DNA of 64,000 nt from Paracoccaceae bacterium (GTDB lineage: Bacteria > Pseudomonadota > Alphaproteobacteria > Rhodobacterales > Rhodobacteraceae): the NCBI GenBank assembly GCA_026989055.1, contig JALSKC010000037.1:1-64000 (forward strand), in the 5' to 3' direction. A program made the translations under genes and the position numbers. Of the stretch, positions 23,864 through 63,998 are shown piece after piece. A model generated the notes under the pieces. It made no database searches, had not been told where the DNA came from, and saw only the letters and a list, made by a program, of their open reading frames with translations. The first letter of the stretch is position 1, and every line of letters starts with the position of its first letter.

Positions 23864-24696
23864 GCGTTCAGCAGGACTTTCCGGGTTTCCCCGTCCACCT
23901 CCGGTCTCGCTCCGAACCACCGTTCGAAGGCCGGAACCGCCTGGTGGATCAGCATCCCGAGTCCGTCGATCGTGGTGCAGCCGATCTTCCGCGCCTTCTG
24001 CAGAAGCGGGGTATCGAGCGGCGTATAGACAAGATCGGTGACAACGGCGTCCTGCTCCAGCGCATCCAGCGGCACGCGCAGCTCCGGCTTGCCGGTCATT
24101 CCCAGCGATGTGGCATTGGCCAGCAGCTTCACCCCTTCGAGCATGTTTCCCGCCTGCACCCAGTCGAATACCCGGACCCGGGAGCCGAATTCCGCCCGCA
24201 GCGCCTCGGCTCGCGCCCGCGTGCGGTTGGACAGCCGGATCTCGCCGACTCCGGCATCCAGCAGGGAAGCCAGAACCGCCCGCGCCGCGCCGCCCGCGCC
24301 GAGAACCGCCGCCGGGCCGGCCTCCGGCCGCCAGGAAGGCGCGCCCAGGCGCAGATTTTCCATGAAACCGTAACCATCTGTATTGTCGGCATGAATCTTC
24401 CCGTCACGGCGGAATATCAGCGTGTTGGCCGCCCCGATCAGGGCCGCGCGGTCGGTTACCACATCGGCCAGTGCAAGTGCTCTCTCCTTGTGCGGTATGG
24501 TGACATTCACCCCGACGAATCCGAGCTTCGGCAGCGTCCTGATCGCCTGTTCCAGATCGGCCTGGGAAACCTCCATCGGGATGTAGTAGCCGCGGATTCC
24601 GGCTCGTTTCAACCAGAACCCGTGCAGCGCCGGCGAACGGCTGTGCGCCACCGGCTGGCCGATCACGCCGGCAAGGGGAAACGGCTGCTCCGTCAT
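23860..24696 (-). CDS. aroE: Shikimate dehydrogenase
   Basis: A 278-residue NADPH-dependent enzyme that reduces 3-dehydroshikimate to shikimate in aromatic amino-acid synthesis. The substrate-binding HSRSP motif is near the N-terminus. The catalytic Lys is in NVTIPHKE, the Asn-Thr-Asp in ADNTDGYGF, and the nucleotide fold in VLGAGGAARA. It overlaps maf and coaE by 4 nt each. Confidence 0.95.
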   Translation of the reverse strand: MTEQPFPLAGVIGQPVAHSRSPALHGFWLKRAGIRGYYIPMEVSQADLEQAIRTLPKLGFVGVNVTIPHKERALALADVVTDRAALIGAANTLIFRRDGKIHADNTDGYGFMENLRLGAPSWRPEAGPAAVLGAGGAARAVLASLLDAGVGEIRLSNRTRARAEALRAEFGSRVRVFDWVQAGNMLEGVKLLANATSLGMTGKPELRVPLDALEQDAVVTDLVYTPLDTPLLQKARKIGCTTIDGLGMLIHQAVPAFERWFGARPEVDGETRKVLLNA

Positions 24697-25292
24697 GACG
24701 GGACCAGCCCCCTGTCGGCGAGATACCCGATCAGCTCGAGCATCGGCAGGCCAAGGATGGTGAAATGATCGCCCTCGATCTTCTCGAACAATCTGATTCC
24801 CTCTGCCTCGATCCGGTAACAGCCTACCGTATGACGCAGATCATCCCAGTTCCTGTCAACATAGTCATCTATGTAACCCTGCGACAGTCGGCGCATCGTC
24901 ATGCCCGCCTCGCCAAGCGCATGCCAGACGATCCGCCCGCCCTCGCGGACGACGACCGCCGAAAACAGATCGTGCCGCCGGCCGGACAATTCCGCCAGCT
25001 GGCTGCGGGCCTGCTGCCTGTCCCGCGGCTTGGAAAACAGCTTTCCGTCGAGCGCCAGGATCTGATCGCAGCCGATCACGAGATGCTGGGGGTGGCGCAG
25101 TCCTACCTTCGCCGCCTTTGCCTCGGCAAGAATCCGTGCGACCTCTGCCGGGCGTGCGCCCTCGGCGGTTGCGGCATGGCGGATCGATTCCTCGTCAAGG
25201 CGCGGGGAAACGGCGGAAAACGTCACCCCGGCCTTGTGCAGGAGCCCGGCCCTGGTTTCCGACCCCGAAGCCAGGATGATGCTGTGCGTCAT
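24693..25292 (-). CDS. maf: Maf family nucleotide pyrophosphatase
   Basis: A 199-residue nucleoside triphosphate pyrophosphatase of the Maf/YceF type, which removes non-canonical or modified nucleotides. The family start ILASGSETRAGLL replaces the more common ILASASPRR. The catalytic region GCDQILALDGKLFSKP and the ELSGRRHDLFSAVVV motif are present. It is the first gene of maf-aroE-coaE-dnaQ and begins directly at the edge of the putative origin. A pyruvate-dikinase regulator gene, found next to maf in relatives, is not here. Confidence 0.9.
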   Translation of the reverse strand: MTHSIILASGSETRAGLLHKAGVTFSAVSPRLDEESIRHAATAEGARPAEVARILAEAKAAKVGLRHPQHLVIGCDQILALDGKLFSKPRDRQQARSQLAELSGRRHDLFSAVVVREGGRIVWHALGEAGMTMRRLSQGYIDDYVDRNWDDLRHTVGCYRIEAEGIRLFEKIEGDHFTILGLPMLELIGYLADRGLVPS

Positions 25293-25587
25293 GGTGACAA
25301 CCCTGTGGGGGAATCAGTGAAGCTCGTGAGGAAGAAACGCTGTTCTCCCATGCGCCGGAAAGGTGATCGGTGCCGGGAGGCGCATTGTCAAGAAGATCCG
25401 GGAAATCATGCAGGAACAATCCCCTGTGGATGGCCGGGCTCGAGCGCCGGTTCCGGATGTGCAGATTTCGATCATCCTCCCAATATCCAGGAATTCTTCC
25501 CGAGGATCACAATTCTATCAGTCTGAATCACATGGAATCTTTATCTTGCCCACAGATCGTGAAGATTCCGATGCCCTTTCCCTGAAA

Positions 25588-25596
25588 TGTGGATGA
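25588..25596 (-). promoter_or_regulatory. DnaA box
   Basis: TGTGGATGA, one mismatch from the TGTGGATAA consensus (minus-strand orientation of TTATCCACA). Confidence 0.6.
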
Positions 25597-25612
25597 AACG
25601 GTGAATCGAATA

Positions 25613-25621
25613 TTATCCACG
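25613..25621 (+). promoter_or_regulatory. DnaA box
   Basis: TTATCCACG, one mismatch from TTATCCACA, immediately next to the AT-rich block at 25637-25657. Confidence 0.65.
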
Positions 25622-25731
25622 AAATTCGCAGCCCAACATCATATATAACATATATCTTTCCTGTTTCATCTTTCCTGTTTCCTGCATTTATGAAAGTGGA
25701 CAGGGCAGCGAGTTTCGGGCAGGCAGGGGGC

Positions 25732-26184
25732 ATGTCCGACTTGCTGATATCCGCCTATCCCTGGATCAAGTCCCTGCATGTGATCTCGGTCATCTCCTGG
25801 ATGGCGGGGTTGTTCTACCTGCCGAGGCTGTTCGTCTATCACGTGGAAAGGGCCGCCGGTAACCGGGAGATGGCAGAGACCTTCGCGCTCATGGAGTGTC
25901 GGCTGCTGCGGGCGATCATGAACCCGGCGATGATCGCCACCTGGGTCTTCGGGCTGATGCTGCTGTTTACCCCGGGCATCATCGACTGGGCCGAATTCTG
26001 GCCCTGGGCAAAGGCAGCGGCGGTGATCGGCATGACCTGGTTCCACCACTGGCTGGGGCGGCGGCGGAAGGACTTCCTTTCCGGCAGGCAGCGCCTGAGC
26101 GGGCGGGCCTACCGGCTGATGAACGAGGTTCCGACGCTGCTTCTGGTGATCATCGTGTTTTCCGTCATTGCCCGCCCCGGCTGA
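25732..26184 (+). CDS. hemJ: Protoporphyrinogen oxidase HemJ
   Basis: A 150-residue inner-membrane protein that oxidises protoporphyrinogen IX in heme synthesis. Four hydrophobic helices are visible. The family motifs are WIKSLHVISVISWMAGLFYLPRLFVYH, whose His binds heme, and later TWFHHWLGRRRKDF. The start MSDLLISAYPW has AGGGGG upstream; an ATG 14 codons earlier is in the origin region and less likely. It is the first rightward gene from oriC and ends 6 nt before a perfect inverted repeat. Confidence 0.92.
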   Translation: MSDLLISAYPWIKSLHVISVISWMAGLFYLPRLFVYHVERAAGNREMAETFALMECRLLRAIMNPAMIATWVFGLMLLFTPGIIDWAEFWPWAKAAAVIGMTWFHHWLGRRRKDFLSGRQRLSGRAYRLMNEVPTLLLVIIVFSVIARPG

Positions 26185-26190
26185 CCGAGA

Positions 26191-26218
26191 CGGGGAAGAT
26201 TGACTCGTATCTTCCCCG
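26191..26218. repeat. Perfect 10-bp inverted repeat between hemJ and rho
   Basis: The arms CGGGGAAGAT (26191-26200) and ATCTTCCCCG (26209-26218) surround an 8-nt loop. It overlaps the predicted -35 of rho and also follows the hemJ stop. It has no T-run, so an operator, an attenuating hairpin or a weak terminator are all possible. Confidence 0.6.
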
Positions 26219-26228
26219 CGCTTATCAA
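26200..26228 (+). promoter_or_regulatory. Probable rho promoter
   Basis: TTGACT (26200-26205), a 17-nt spacer and TATCAA (26223-26228). It leaves a leader of about 70 nt before the rho ATG. Long regulated leaders are common for rho. Confidence 0.5.
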
Positions 26229-26304
26229 GGCGGCGGTGGCCGTCCGGCCACGTGGTTCCCTTTTCAGACAGGATTGCCCGCTTCCGGGCCGTTGCGAGGT
26301 TTTC

Positions 26305-27576
26305 ATGACACAGGAACGCCTGCACCTTTCCGACCTCAAGGCGAAGAGCCCGAAGGATCTTCTCGCGATGGCCGAGGAACTCGAGATCGAGAATGCCTCG
26401 ACCATGCGCAAGGGCGAGATGATGTTCTCGATTCTCAAGGAACGCGCGGAAGACGGGTGGGAGATTTCCGGCGATGGCGTGCTGGAAGTGCTGCAGGACG
26501 GCTTCGGCTTCCTGCGCTCGCCCGAGGCGAACTATCTGCCCGGGCCGGACGACATCTATGTTTCGCCGGAAATGATCCGCCAGCACTCGCTGCGCACCGG
26601 AGATACGGTTGACGGGGTGATCCAGGCACCGCGCGAGAACGAACGCTACTTCGCGATCACCAAGGTGACGGGTATAAACTTCGAGGATCCGGAGAAGGCC
26701 CGCCACAAGATCAACTTCGACAACCTCACGCCGCTCTATCCGAACGAGCGGCTGAACATGGAGATAGAGGACCAGAAGACAAAGGATTTCTCGGCCCGGA
26801 TCATCGATCTGATCGCCCCCATCGGCAAGGGCCAGCGTTCGCTCATCGTGGCGCCGCCGCGCACCGGCAAGACGGTTCTGTTGCAGAACATCGCCCATTC
26901 GATCGAGAAGAATCACCCCGAATGCTACCTGATCGTGCTGCTGATCGACGAGCGCCCCGAAGAGGTGACCGACATGCAGCGCTCGGTGAAGGGCGAGGTC
27001 ATATCCTCCACCTTTGACGAACCGGCCAGCCGCCATGTGGCGGTTTCCGAGATGGTGATCGAAAAGGCCAAGCGGCTGGTGGAGCACAAGCGCGACGTGG
27101 TGATCCTGCTCGATTCCATCACCCGTCTGGGAAGGGCCTACAACACCACCGTACCTTCCTCGGGCAAGGTATTGACCGGCGGGGTGGATGCCAATGCCCT
27201 GCAACGGCCCAAGCGGTTCTTCGGCGCGGCGCGCAACATCGAGGAGGGCGGTTCGCTCACCATCATCGCTACGGCGCTGATCGATACCGGCAGCCGGATG
27301 GACGAGGTGATCTTCGAAGAGTTCAAGGGAACCGGCAACTCGGAAATCGTGCTCGACCGGAAGGTGGCCGACAAGCGGGTGTTCCCGGCGATGGACATCC
27401 TGAAGTCCGGAACCAGAAAGGAAGAACTTCTGGTCGAAAAGTCCGACCTTCAGAAAACCTATGTCCTGCGCCGGATCCTGAACCCGATGGGAACCACGGA
27501 TGCGATCGACTTCCTGATTTCCAAGCTGAAGCAGACCAGATCGAACGCCGAGTTCTTCGATTCAATGAATGCATAA
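26305..27576 (+). CDS. rho: Transcription termination factor Rho
   Basis: A 423-residue hexameric RNA helicase that ends transcription at Rho-dependent sites. In order: the N-terminal helical domain ([18 protein letters not shown]), the cold-shock-like RNA-binding domain ([30 protein letters not shown]), Walker A ([12 protein letters not shown]), Walker B ([17 protein letters not shown]) and the Q and R loops. Length is normal. The stop codon lies in a tandem 10-bp repeat. mnmE follows 29 nt later. Confidence 0.97.
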
Positions 27577-28913: not shown

Positions 28914-30791
28914 GTGTTTCACGTGAAACATCGGGAAGCGGACATAATCGTCGTCGGGGGCGGCCATGCCGGCGCCGAAGCGGCTCATGCGGCGGCAAGA
29001 ATGGGTGCGCGCACGGTTCTGGTCACGCTTCGGCTGTCGGGAATCGGGGTGATGTCCTGCAACCCGGCGATCGGTGGCCTCGGCAAGGGGCATCTCGTGC
29101 GTGAAATCGATGCGCTTGATGGGCTGATGGCCCGAGCCGGCGATCACGCAGGCATCCAGTTCAGGCTTCTGAACCGCCGGAAGGGACCGGCTGTTCAGGG
29201 GCCGCGGGTCCAGGCCGACCGGAGTCGTTACCGGGAGTTTATCGGCGCGGCGCTGTCGGCGATGCCGGGGCTGGAGATTCTCGAAGGCGAGGTGGCAGAT
29301 CTTCTTCTTCGGGGCGAGAGAGTTTTCGGGGTCGTGCTTGCGGGCGGGGAGGAGCTGCACGCGCGTGCGGTCGTTCTCACTGCCGGAACCTTCCTGCGCG
29401 GTCGGATACATATCGGGCGGGAAAGCCGTTCGGGTGGTCGCGTCGGCGACAGGGCGTCGCTCCGCCTGGCCGAGCGGATCGCCGACATGGGGTTCAGGAC
29501 CGGGCGGCTGAAAACCGGAACGCCGCCGCGTCTGGACGGCAGGACGATCGACTGGGATCTGCTGGAGAAACAACCGGGCGATCCGGATCCGACCATGTTG
29601 TCCTTTCTTTCCCGGGCGCCTGTCGCCCGGCAGGTCAGCTGCGCGATCACCCACACGAATCCGAAAACCCATGAGATAATAAGGAACAACCTCGAATTTT
29701 CGGCGATGTATGGTGGGGAGATCGAGGGGCCGGGGCCGCGCTACTGCCCTTCGATCGAGGACAAGATCCTGCGTTTTGCCGACAAGGATTCGCACCAGAT
29801 CTTCCTGGAGCCGGAGGGCCTGGACGACAGCACGGTTTACCCGAACGGGATTTCCACCTCGCTTCCGGCCGAGATCCAGGAGGCCTATGTGCGCTCCATA
29901 AGAGGGCTCGAGAACGCGCGGATCATCCAGCCGGGATATGCGATCGAATATGATTACGTCGATCCGAGGGGGCTGAAACCGTCTCTCGAGTGCCGTGACT
30001 TCCCCGGGCTGTTCCTGGCCGGGCAGATCAACGGGACGACCGGATACGAGGAGGCGGGAGCGCAGGGGCTGATTGCCGGGATCAACGCCGCCCTTGCCGT
30101 CTCGGGGCAGGAGGCGGTCACGCTGGGGCGCTCCCGGGCCTATGCGGGGGTGATGATCGACGACCTGATCACGCGCGGCGTCTCCGAGCCCTATCGGATG
30201 TTCACCTCGCGGGCGGAGTTCCGCCTGTCGCTGCGCGCGGACAATGCCGATCAGCGGCTCACCCGGCTCGGAATCGAGCTCGGTTGTGTCGGGGAGGCCC
30301 GACGTCGCGCCTTCGAGGAAAAGATGGAATCTCTTTCCGATCTGACGCAGGTATTGCGGGAAAACAGCTTTTCGCCCCAGGATACAGCGCGGGTCGGGAT
30401 CCGTAGCGGCAGGAGCGGGGGGCGGCGCACGGCGTATGAGCTGCTGTCCTTTCCGGAGGTGAGCCGGGAGCATATCCTGTCGCTGGTTCCCGAAGCCAGG
30501 AAGGCGCCGGAGGAGATCTTCCGGCAGGTTGCGCGGGATGCTCTTTATGCGAACTACCTGTCGCGCCAGGAGCAGGACATGGAGGCGCTGCGCCGCGACG
30601 AGGCGATCAGGATACCGGAAGGGTTCGACTACCGTTCCCTGAGCGGCCTTTCCAACGAGCTGGTGGAAAAGCTTTCTTCCGTGCGTCCGGCCACGCTTGC
30701 CCAGGCAGCCCGGATCGAAGGGATGACGCCGGCGGCGCTTGTTCTTCTCCTCGGTCGCCTGAAGCGGTCCGGCAGAAGGGCATCCGCTTGA
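28914..30791 (+). CDS. mnmG: tRNA uridine carboxymethylaminomethyl enzyme MnmG
   Basis: A 625-residue FAD- and NADH-dependent partner of MnmE, formerly GidA. It has the dinucleotide motif [12 protein letters not shown], the catalytic-cysteine region [23 protein letters not shown], and [24 protein letters not shown]. The GTG start begins the peptide MFHVKH. These codons are the parS site, an arrangement familiar from Rhodobacterales MnmG, which supports this start. Its last base pairs overlap rsmG. Confidence 0.96.
28915..28930. promoter_or_regulatory. parS: parS centromere site 1
   Basis: The palindrome TGTTTCACGTGAAACA is a perfect match to the ParB-binding consensus. It overlaps the mnmG start codon, about 3.3 kb from oriC. 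Confidence 0.93.
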
Positions 30792-31429
30792 ACATTCGCG
30801 CCGAGGGGGATGCGCGCGAGGAGCTGCGCCGGCGCTTCCGTGTTTCACGTGAAACAATGGCGGCACTCGACCGTCACCTGGAGCTTCTCGCAAAGTGGAC
30901 GGCGCGGATCAACCTCGTTTCCCGCGATTCCCTGCGACAGGCCTGGTCCCGGCATTTTCTCGATTCCGCACAGATCCTGCCGCTGGTTTCCCGGCAGGGC
31001 GGGCTCTGGGCCGATATCGGGTCCGGAGGCGGGTTTCCGGGGCTTGTGCTTGCGATCCTCTCGCACGAGAGCGCGCCGGGCCGGCGTTTCCTGCTGATCG
31101 AGAGCGACCGGCGAAAGGCGGCCTTTCTCCGGGCGGTGGTTGCGGAGCTTTCCCTGCGGGCCGATGTCGTCGTTTCCAGGGCGGAGGCGCTGCCCCCCCT
31201 CGGGGCAAGCGTTCTTTCGGCGCGGGCCCTGGCGCCGCTTGAAGTTCTTCTTTCCCATGCGGAAAGGCATCTTGCGCCCGGGGGTGCGGCCGTTTTCCCG
31301 AAGGGCGCCGAAGCGGGGCGCGAGATCGAAGAAGCCCTTGAAAAATGGCGGTTCAGGGTTCAGAAACACCAGAGCGTTACCCGCCGAGACGCCGTCATTC
31401 TGAAGATCACGGAGATAGAACGTGCCTGA
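30788..31429 (+). CDS. rsmG: 16S rRNA m7G527 methyltransferase RsmG
   Basis: A 213-residue SAM-dependent methyltransferase (formerly GidB) that makes m7G527 in 16S rRNA; its loss gives low-level streptomycin resistance. The SAM site [15 protein letters not shown] and the rRNA-interaction region [11 protein letters not shown] are clear. A TTG start overlaps the mnmG stop (TTGA) and has AGAAGGG upstream. An ATG at 30857 would remove the parS-encoded VSRET motif. The end overlaps the parA start by 8 nt. Confidence 0.93.
30841..30856. promoter_or_regulatory. parS: parS centromere site 2
   Basis: A second perfect TGTTTCACGTGAAACA, inside the rsmG coding region where it encodes the V-S-R-E-T segment, 1.9 kb from site 1. 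Confidence 0.93.
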
Positions 31430-32237
31430 CCCGTCCCATCCCCCGGCTCCGAGGATCATTGCGGTGGTCAACCAGAAGGGTGGGGTCGGAAAGACCACGA
31501 CGGCGATCAATCTTGGTGCGGCTCTTGCCGAGCTCGGGTTTCGTGTTCTGCTGGTGGATCTCGATCCGCAGGGCAACGCCTCTACCGGGTTGGGAATCGG
31601 CCGGGAAGACAGGAAGCTGACGACCTATGATTTGCTTCTCGATGGGGCAAACATACAAGATGTTGTAAGAAAAACCGCTATAGAAGGGCTGTTCATCGCC
31701 CCTTCGACTACTGATCTGAGCTCGGCCGACATCGAGATGGTTGCCAACGAGAAACGCAGCTATCTGCTGCATGATGCGTTGCGCCAGGGGGGAATCGACC
31801 GCTATGCCTTCGATTACGTCCTGATCGACTGCCCGCCATCGCTCAGCCTGCTGACGGTGAATGCGATGGTGGCAGCGGATTCGGTTCTCGTGCCGCTCCA
31901 GAGCGAATTCTATGCGCTGGAGGGCCTGTCGCAGCTTCTGCTCACCTTGCGCGACATCCGGCGCAATGCCAACCCGGATCTGCGGATCGAGGGCATCGTC
32001 CTCACCATGTTCGACAGTCGCAACAACCTCTCCCGTCAGGTGGAGGCCGACGCGCGGGAAAACCTCGGCGAGGTGGTGTTCAGGACCGTCATTCCGCGCA
32101 ATGTGCGCATAAGCGAGGCCCCTTCCTACGCCCTGCCGGTGCTCGAATATGACAGTGCGTCCAAGGGAAGCATGGCCTACAGGGCGCTGGCGGAAGAAAT
32201 GCTGGCCCAGCAGGGACGGCGAGCAGAGCAGGGGTAG
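31422..32237 (+). CDS. parA: Chromosome partitioning ATPase ParA
   Basis: A 271-residue Walker-type ATPase that moves ParB-parS complexes to segregate replicated origins. The deviant Walker A KGGVGKTTTAINLG, the switch DLDPQGNASTGLG and the Walker B-like DYVLIDCPPSLSLLT are intact. It has no N-terminal DNA-binding domain, as expected for a chromosomal (Soj-like) ParA. It uses a GTG start that overlaps rsmG. Codons near 31645-31690 are unusually A+T-rich for the region. Confidence 0.96.
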   Translation: MPDPSHPPAPRIIAVVNQKGGVGKTTTAINLGAALAELGFRVLLVDLDPQGNASTGLGIGREDRKLTTYDLLLDGANIQDVVRKTAIEGLFIAPSTTDLSSADIEMVANEKRSYLLHDALRQGGIDRYAFDYVLIDCPPSLSLLTVNAMVAADSVLVPLQSEFYALEGLSQLLLTLRDIRRNANPDLRIEGIVLTMFDSRNNLSRQVEADARENLGEVVFRTVIPRNVRISEAPSYALPVLEYDSASKGSMAYRALAEEMLAQQGRRAEQG

Positions 32238-32240
32238 AAG

Positions 32241-33137
32241 ATGTCGGAATCGAAACGTGGCAAGAGGGGCCTGGGGCGGGGGCTGTCGGCTCTGATGGCA
32301 GATGTGGCGCCCCAGGCCGAATCGGCGCAGGAAGAACCGCAGCGCAGGCGCGACACGAAGACGGTTCCGATCGAAAGGCTTCACCCGAATCCGGAGCAGC
32401 CGCGCCGGCATTTCGACAGGGAGGGGCTGAACGAGCTTGCCGCCTCGATCCGCGAAAAGGGGATCCTGCAGCCGCTGATCGTGCGCAGACACCCGACGAA
32501 GCCGGAGGATTACGAGATCGTCGCCGGCGAACGGCGCTGGCGGGCCGCGCAGATGGTGCCGCTGCACGAGGTGCCGGTCATCCTGCGCGACTATACCGAT
32601 ACCGAAGTGCTGGAAATCGCGATCATCGAGAACATCCAGCGCACGGATCTGAATCCGGTGGAAGAGGCCGCCGGATACCGGCAGCTCATGGATCGTTTCG
32701 GCCATACCCAGGAACAGCTGGCCGCTGCACTTTCGAGAAGCCGCAGCCATATCGCCAACCTTGTCCGGCTTCTGCAGCTTCCCGATGATGTTCTCGACCT
32801 GCTTCGCGAAGGAAGGCTTTCGGCCGGCCACGCTCGCGCCCTGATCACGGCCGACGACCCTTCCGCACTGGCGCGGCAGGTTGTGGCAAGAGGGCTGTCG
32901 GTCAGGGAGGCGGAGGCCCTGGCGAGGAGGGCCGGCAGCGGGAGCACCGGAAGGAAGCGGCGCGTGTCGCGGTCGGAAAAGGATGCCGACACGCGGGCGC
33001 TGGAACAGGATCTTTCGGCCAATGTGGGCATGAAGGTCCGGATCGAGCACCGCGAGACGGACGGGTCCGGTCAGGTGGTGATCAGCTATCGGAACATGGA
33101 CGATCTGGACGAGATCTGCCGGATCCTGTCCGGTTGA
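32241..33137 (+). CDS. parB: Chromosome partitioning protein ParB
   Basis: A 298-residue CTPase and parS-binding protein. The N-terminal ParA-interaction region is RGLGRGLSALMADV. The CTP-binding motif GERRWRAAQM is followed by the helix-turn-helix region around QEQLAAALSRSRSHIANLVRLLQLP. A C-terminal dimerisation domain ends the protein. Its gene is 3 nt after parA, and its two sites lie 1.4-3.3 kb upstream. Confidence 0.96.
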   Translation: MSESKRGKRGLGRGLSALMADVAPQAESAQEEPQRRRDTKTVPIERLHPNPEQPRRHFDREGLNELAASIREKGILQPLIVRRHPTKPEDYEIVAGERRWRAAQMVPLHEVPVILRDYTDTEVLEIAIIENIQRTDLNPVEEAAGYRQLMDRFGHTQEQLAAALSRSRSHIANLVRLLQLPDDVLDLLREGRLSAGHARALITADDPSALARQVVARGLSVREAEALARRAGSGSTGRKRRVSRSEKDADTRALEQDLSANVGMKVRIEHRETDGSGQVVISYRNMDDLDEICRILSG

Positions 33138-63477: not shown

Positions 63478-63998
63478 TACTGCACCTTTGCCCGGATGAT
63501 GCCGGAAATGTATTCCAGTGCCATCACGGTTCCGATGATGAGAATGAGAATCGCCGCCGCGGTGTCGAATTCGTAGCGGTCGAAGGCGGTGTTCAGGGTC
63601 GCGCCGATCCCGCCGGCCCCGACCAGCCCGAGGATCGCGCTTTCGCGGAAGTTGATGTCGAGCCGATACATGGACAGCCCCACCAGCCGGGGCATCACCT
63701 GCGGCTGGACTCCGTAGTTGACCCATTGCAGCCAGCTGGCGCCGGTGGCCCGGATCGCCTCCGCCTGCACCCTGTCCATGCTCTCGATGTCCTCGGCCAG
63801 CAGCTTCGAGAGAAAGCCGATGGTGGCAAAGGACAGGGTCAGGAACCCGGCCAGAGGCCCGAAGCCGAAGATCGCCACCAGCAGGATGGCGACGATGATT
63901 TCCTGCAGTGCCCGGCTGATCGCGATGATGCCGCGGCAGACCAGATAGACCGGCAGCGGCGCGATGTTGCGCGCCGCGCCCAGCCCGATCGGAATCGA
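63477..63998 (-). CDS. phnE: Phosphonate ABC transporter permease PhnE, 5' end outside window
   Basis: The C-terminal 173 residues of a second PhnE. The reading frame is open through the window edge at 64000. The EAA loop EAIRATGASWLQWVNYGVQPQVMPRLVG and RESAILGLVGAGGIG are typical. A GTG at 63878 could be taken for a start but lies inside a helix and is not one. It precedes and overlaps the other phnE by a TAATG. Confidence 0.9.
   Translation of the reverse strand, partial: SIPIGLGAARNIAPLPVYLVCRGIIAISRALQEIIVAILLVAIFGFGPLAGFLTLSFATIGFLSKLLAEDIESMDRVQAEAIRATGASWLQWVNYGVQPQVMPRLVGLSMYRLDINFRESAILGLVGAGGIGATLNTAFDRYEFDTAAAILILIIGTVMALEYISGIIRAKVQ

Follow-up and report, generated by a model that had tools for sequence, protein, structure and literature searches.

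Sequence anatomy of the probable chromosome origin of a Rhodobacteraceae bacterium and a possible variant of the DnaA opening code

In Caulobacter, the origin of replication lies between hemE and COG1806 (PMC1914354), and OriC1 of R. sphaeroides has been placed by skew and imaged via ParB (PMC6315104). Within the Rhodobacteraceae, oriC positions have been predicted for 101 strains with Ori-Finder, using skew, the GC minimum and parAB (PMC6699656). In almost all of 179 closed alphaproteobacterial genomes parAB lies near the origin, the exceptions falling in three orders that include Rhodobacterales (PMC8116508). For opening of the duplex, the closest described counterpart is the basal unwinding system (BUS) of B. 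subtilis, where Asn187 of DnaA touches the central adenine of a DnaA-trio, and Arg202 and Glu228 touch its guanine (PMC10721633). These trio-reading residues are not universally conserved, and homologs might read other sequences (PMC10721633); deviant trios have also been suspected to explain origins missed by search (Pelliciari et al. 2021, PMC8287927).

We analyzed a stretch of 64,000 nucleotides (the window; positions 1–64000 of the 70,660-bp contig C37) from a Rhodobacteraceae genome of 83 contigs (2.77 Mb, 99.46% complete). A preliminary description had read the gap at 25293–25731 as a putative chromosome origin. The skew minimum, the boxes, the low stability, the parS sites and the conservation of the gap support that reading, and we take the gap to be oriC of the main chromosome with a probability of about 0.96. 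At the level of sequence, the location of oriC, its boxes, helical instability, strand asymmetry, conservation, skew and parS sites are documented below.

Gene context, composition and skew of the maf–hemJ gap

The gap is a 439-bp intergenic region between divergent genes, maf on the left (24693–25292, − strand; above cut-off for PF02545 and TIGR00172) and hemJ on the right (25732–26184, + strand; above cut-off for TIGR00701). Matches to curated NCBIfam profiles bore out the gene order previously given, maf-aroE-coaE-dnaQ on one side and hemJ-rho-mnmE-mnmG-rsmG-parAB on the other: Maf, AroE, CoaE, DnaQ, HemJ, Rho, MnmE, MnmG and RsmG each exceeded at least one curated cut-off. The parA-parB pair (31422–33137, + strand) was recognized from its ORFs and family profile matches, ParB scoring above a domain cut-off and ParA below the ParA-family cut-offs (among the best 25 of 29 matches). 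The nearest four genes to the left and the nearest seven to the right all point away from the gap; farther left, directions are mixed. The gap was also described as gene-free, and it is: the ORFs of at least 120 aa that enter it are antisense to maf (24765–25526), antisense to hemJ-rho (25666–27204), or the hemJ frame itself when read from 25690. An Rfam scan of 24500–26500 found nothing in the gap; a cobalamin match to its right, at 26085–26296, was below threshold (14.4 vs 31.5 bits) and was set aside.

The claim that the gap is AT-rich survives only in part. Its GC content is 0.50 against 0.669 for the window, so the term holds relative to the window and fails as an absolute statement. The lowest GC content of any 250-bp stretch of the window, 0.408, begins at 25451, inside the gap. 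By nearest-neighbor stability, the least stable segments of the 64 kb at lengths of 100 bp (25603–25702) and 200 bp (25481–25680) both lie in the gap, and 25641–25690 ranks second among the least stable 50-bp stretches of the window.

Cumulative GC skew rises slightly over the first 2 kb, drops to −514 at 25149 and climbs to +560 at 63598, and keto skew over the window reaches its lowest value at 24997; the two minima miss the gap by 144 and 296 bp, respectively. The skew check suggested in the preliminary description, applied to this one contig of the 83, favors the gap, with the contig minimum (25149) beside it and none elsewhere on the 70,660 bp. A single-contig relative (G045), which shares the gene order of the window from hslU to rsmG, also has a skew minimum here: sampled skew was negative in 8 of 9 samples between 1.8 and 3.17 Mb, positive in 7 of 9 between 0 and 1.6 Mb, and turned in the 20-kb sample around hemJ (3,221,439), with a local minimum inside aroE at 3,220,183, some 0.9 kb to the left of the gap. 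In a second relative (G055), the minimum is found only roughly. There hemJ is at 123 kb, whereas the skew samples switch sign between 20 and 60 kb and have returned to a slightly negative value at 200 kb; the agreement is thus no better than about 0.1 Mb, too coarse for a skew control.

Perfect parS sites occur just twice in the 2.77-Mb genome, 3.2 and 5.1 kb from the gap and next to parAB. Both are on the + strand, one (TGTTTCACGTGAAACA, 28915–28930) at the start of mnmG and the other (30841–30856) inside rsmG. Each falls within coding sequence: one encodes the first residues of MnmG, and the other is near the start of rsmG.

DnaA boxes in the gap and across the family

Two DnaA boxes matching at 8 of 9 positions are exactly where the preliminary description had put them, TCATCCACA at 25588–25596 (− strand) and TTATCCACG at 25613–25621 (+ strand). 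A motif scan placed the two 7/9 boxes it had counted at 25425–25433 (− strand) and 25546–25554 (+ strand). A further weak site (5/9) at 25622–25630 on the + strand, in tandem with the 25613 box, is proposed from its position in the family. When the gap was shuffled 1,000 times (first-order), 0.2% of the shuffled sequences had at least two 8/9 boxes (P 0.002) and 3.9% had at least four boxes of 7/9 or better. The window's total of four 8/9 boxes was matched by 27 of 100 shuffles and is not unusual; it is therefore the pairing inside the gap that counts.

We compared the gap with those of relatives, taking as family loci the best-scoring HemJ matches, from 29 of 56 matching relatives (in a draw of 60) and from 80 of 560; more distant members consequently fall outside this sample of 109 loci (L005–L113). 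By title, the 80 relatives are mostly Rhodobacteraceae, and we take the other genera named to belong to this family; exceptions include L045 and L046, titled at higher ranks, and L109, whose Flavobacteriaceae title is probably a binning error and which was kept in the counts. In 106 of the 109 loci, maf and hemJ flank a gap of 250–650 bp. L025 and L026 (gap above 650 bp, with the pyruvate-dikinase regulator PPSR inside), L060 (maf off the stretch) and four duplicates were left out, giving 102 distinct relatives and, with the window, 103 gaps.

The gaps of the 102 relatives are rich in boxes: 40 are perfect (0.4 expected), 255 have at most one mismatch (10.4 expected) and 678 at most two (130.5 expected). 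Boxes of this last-but-one grade, with one mismatch or none, are missing from 6 of the 103 gaps. In the alignment, boxes recur at about nine places, and only at some of these is the window's copy well preserved; the window's boxes are weaker than those of the family, with no perfect box and with 3–4 mismatches at several family sites. Orthologues of the 25613 box have at most two mismatches in 69/103 gaps and at most one in 34/103. At site 25622, which has four mismatches in the window, a box with at most two is found in 46/103. A box of that quality stands at the place of the 25588 box, or a few columns off, in 51/103 (the window's start is off by one), and at the 25425 site in 30/103. GANTC (CcrM) sites were rejected as a feature of the gap, because its five sites compare with a shuffle mean of 3.5 (P 0.26) and the family gaps are depleted of them (142 vs 183 expected). 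Three of the 102 relatives have 11 GANTC sites in the gap, and 40 have none.

As had been pointed out, hemE and PPSR are not beside the gap: hemE is on contig C17, and PPSR (PF03618) had no match in this assembly. That both are missing beside the gap is usual in family loci. Of 115 genomes sampled from the class, 68 have a PPSR match, and in L025 and L026 the gene lies between maf and the gap. Since it is unmatched here and retained in these two relatives, most of the family has probably lost an ancestral arrangement in which PPSR adjoined oriC.

The only two perfect TTATCCACA boxes of the genome, each solitary, are upstream of smc and of dnaB (L158:6583–6591, at G000:C3:30583, and L159:821–829, at G000:C23:821). 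For either gene, we searched the 600 bp upstream of the aligned N-terminus in its 30 best-scoring family loci, our own included. Upstream of smc there were 29 boxes with at most one mismatch (1.3 expected), 19 of them perfect (0.04 expected), mostly 99–114 bp before the N-terminus; 3 of the 30 loci had no box. Upstream of dnaB there were 33 (1.7 expected), 10 of them perfect (0 expected), and 2 of the 30 loci had none. This conservation suggests that DnaA controls the helicase (dnaB) and condensin (smc) genes.

These isolated boxes, conserved before dnaB and smc, also suggest that boxes mark promoters in this family, and maf and hemJ are divergent; the gap could thus be a mere DnaA-regulated divergent promoter, with the origin elsewhere. 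However, a skew minimum, parS sites, box clusters across the gap and a strand-asymmetric melting module are unexpected for a promoter, and a scan of 25200–25800, which alphaproteobacterial promoters may not fit, found no sigma-70-like promoter or terminator. We consider this explanation very improbable. Many non-alphaproteobacterial species have their origin at dnaA, which here is on contig C72, and dnaA is near base 1 in the deposited sequences of five relatives (G003, G034, G045, G049 and G055), although this is probably a numbering habit. The preliminary description had asked about a dnaA-linked origin with stronger boxes. Across 20 kb at dnaA, a scan for boxes with at most one mismatch found none, and cumulative skew rises there without a minimum; in G045, moreover, the turn of the skew is next to hemJ, about 67 kb away from dnaA. 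An origin at dnaA is, in our judgment, barely credible.

Other candidates were also discarded. Two competing box pairs (C17:79150/79184 and C52:100458/100479) lie where skew falls through without a turn; they were picked from 100 boxes of 8/9 or better, out of a total of 111. A plasmid replicon was rejected, there being no distant match among 72,556 plasmids, and no viral contigs holding the DnaA segment were found.

The unwinding module

The right end of the family gap carries a recurring module: two + strand boxes about 9–10 nt apart, a short GC-rich spacer and a + strand free of G, with a T-rich tract at the position of the unwinding element across the family. In 88 of 103 gaps the tandem boxes adjoin a + strand free of G over at least 30 nt, against 12 control stretches of this kind elsewhere in about 2.06 Mb (both strands counted). 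Within the module, five of the 103 gaps lacked a box of 7/9 or better, and the G-free stretch was long enough to score in 98; one C-phase scoring took in all 103.

In the window, the 25613 box is the first box of this module, and the putative DNA unwinding element (25640–25690) has low stability and consists of an AT tract followed by the 13-bp direct repeat TCTTTCCTGTTTC. The alternating AT tract reported beside the best box was recovered at about 25640–25656, adjoining the 25613 box. On the − strand of 25634–25660 we recognize a putative DnaA-trio-like array of C-phased triplets conserved in the family, which on the + strand is CAA CAT CAT ATA TAA CAT ATA TCT TTC. The copies of the direct repeat, at 25655–25667 and 25669–25681, are 14 bp apart within the melting element and resemble the 13-mers of the E. 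coli origin. In the family alignment, the alternating AT tract before 25655 is an insertion.

Over the first 24 nt of the module, 59–60% of C fall in one of three phases, against 46–47% in shuffles, and the excess persists after thinning to 88 sequences (0.593 vs 0.465 ± 0.008). C–C distances of 3, 6, 9 and 12 are all over-represented, and four or more consecutive C-initial triplets occur in 47/103 gaps (12.6 ± 3.1 in shuffles). The commonest in-phase triplets, CAT, CAA, CTA and CTT, present 3′-GTA, GTT, GAT, GAA-5′ on the opposite strand. A central T, equivalent to adenine opposite, is found in 31–32% of C-initial triplets, not above the 35% share of T in the stretch. Weaker but similar phasing (0.54 vs 0.454 ± 0.016) was seen in 19 of 30 other alphaproteobacterial loci, PPSR-flanking gaps that are putative origins; the other 11 had no box before the G-free stretch even by the lenient criterion of at most three mismatches. 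In the C-initial triplets of these 19 loci, central T, A and C have equal shares.

The CAA CAT CAT run begins at 25634, 12 nt past the 25613 box, which is within the 10–13 bp peak of start distances between DnaA-trios and box (PMC8287927). On this ground we suggest that the module works like the B. subtilis BUS, although it is non-canonical by the 3′-NAN-5′ trio rule. By analogy with established oriC biology, DnaA, encoded elsewhere, would occupy both strong and weak boxes across the gap and be directed rightwards by the tandem pair on the + strand, the 25613 box and its weak partner at 25622. The filament would then extend along the − strand, which is poor in C, of the triplet array and T-rich tract (25634–25690), binding it as single-stranded DNA and melting this segment. 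DnaB helicase could then be loaded and forks depart both ways, and ParB at the two parS sites to the right would separate the new origins.

DnaA residues and comparison with known systems

The DnaA of this genome, aligned to PDB chain 8btg_A, has Tyr187, Lys202 and Glu228. We take this chain to be B. subtilis DnaA because its numbering reproduces Asn187/Arg202/Glu228. Among 30 Rhodobacteraceae DnaA proteins (the best 30 of 61 genomes), position 187 is Y in 28, W in one and F in one; among other alphaproteobacterial DnaA (29 of 30 loci aligned), it is Y in 23, F in 3, H in 2 and N in one. Tyr187 is thus present in 51 of 59 alphaproteobacterial DnaA proteins, and Lys202 and Glu228 in all 59. The sole Asn187 among those 29 is in L278 (G126), and the PPSR locus of that genome, L183, has no box with at most one mismatch.

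On the DNA side and on the protein side alike, the guanine of the trio appears retained and the central adenine not, a correlation that hints at a connection between the two. Alphaproteobacterial DnaA filaments may read 3′-G-N-(A/T)-5′, the guanine being fixed through residues 202 and 228 and the central adenine no longer read because Asn187 has become Tyr. We offer this tentatively, at a little under even odds. The pattern fits the deviant trios suspected in PMC8287927, and a literature search that included passages of PMC8287927, PMC10721633 and PMC10225481 found no description of a variant trio code.

The same site could be oriC and yet carry C-phased triplets that are a by-product of a G-poor, meltable strand and are not read by DnaA. 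Our shuffles preserve composition only, and the 12 control G-free stretches are also slightly phased (0.529 vs 0.479 ± 0.027); mild phasing is therefore not unique to the module. Runs of at least four C-initial triplets are present in fewer than half of the gaps, and changes of spacing between nearest neighbors (12 of 25 non-zero ones are multiples of three) are decisive neither way. Against such a by-product, the phasing outlasts thinning, every C–C distance that is a multiple of three up to 12 is in excess, and the 19 other loci are phased similarly, if less strongly. We regard the by-product explanation as quite possible, though short of an even chance. If instead a Tyr187 DnaA does work with adenine-less trios, the sequence rule for opening a bacterial chromosome is not universal, DnaA and its DNA partner would have evolved together, and any search requiring the adenine would overlook or misplace unwinding sites in alphaproteobacteria.

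As an origin, the locus resembles the oriCs predicted in the same family, whose criteria of skew minimum, GC minimum, DnaA boxes and parAB are found here together on one contig; the portion of that report available to us gives no motif-level anatomy of the oriC region, unlike the present analysis (PMC6699656). It has a non-coding cluster of boxes above chance, a meltable element adjoining them and parS/parAB nearby. Like Caulobacter crescentus Cori and the Rickettsia oriC, it is an intergenic region of about 400 bp with DnaA boxes and an AT-rich part (PMC1914354). It differs in having neither hemE nor COG1806 (PPSR) as a flank. CtrA (TTAAN7TTAA) and IHF sites of the Cori type, the latter sought with the generally known consensus, are also lacking, the best matches in the window having two mismatches. 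Across the family, exact CtrA sites occur in 17/103 gaps (1.3 expected) and the exact IHF consensus in 14/103 (2.7 expected).

With the B. subtilis BUS, the module shares co-oriented boxes (one and four mismatches), a 12-nt spacer and triplets that begin with a 3′ G and are followed by an AT-rich tract; it differs in that the central adenine is mostly missing (3′-GTA, GTT) and that DnaA has Tyr rather than Asn at position 187 (PMC8287927, PMC10721633). The tandem pair at 25613 (one mismatch) and 25622 (four) agrees with the canonical arrangement of one box with at most two and one with at most four mismatches. The canonical run of at least three 3′-NAN-5′ trios starting 0–16 bp from the box is not found, the window's run being two, and of the canonical residues Asn187, Arg202 and Glu228 only Glu228 is kept, with Lys at 202. 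We re-implemented the NAN-trio rule (PMC8287927) for the modules: three or more such trios occur in 33 of 98, and in 26 of these 33 the NAN frame is one off the C-phase. When the 50 nt following the boxes were shuffled, 57.6 ± 4.6 of 98 had three or more, so NAN runs are not enriched there, part of the deficit arising because shuffling brings the T-rich tract nearer the boxes. As an origin, then, the locus is ordinary, a further example of a known oriC type that adds motif-level anatomy for the Rhodobacteraceae, while the conserved letters of its unwinding module and the matching spot in DnaA deviate from the textbook pattern.
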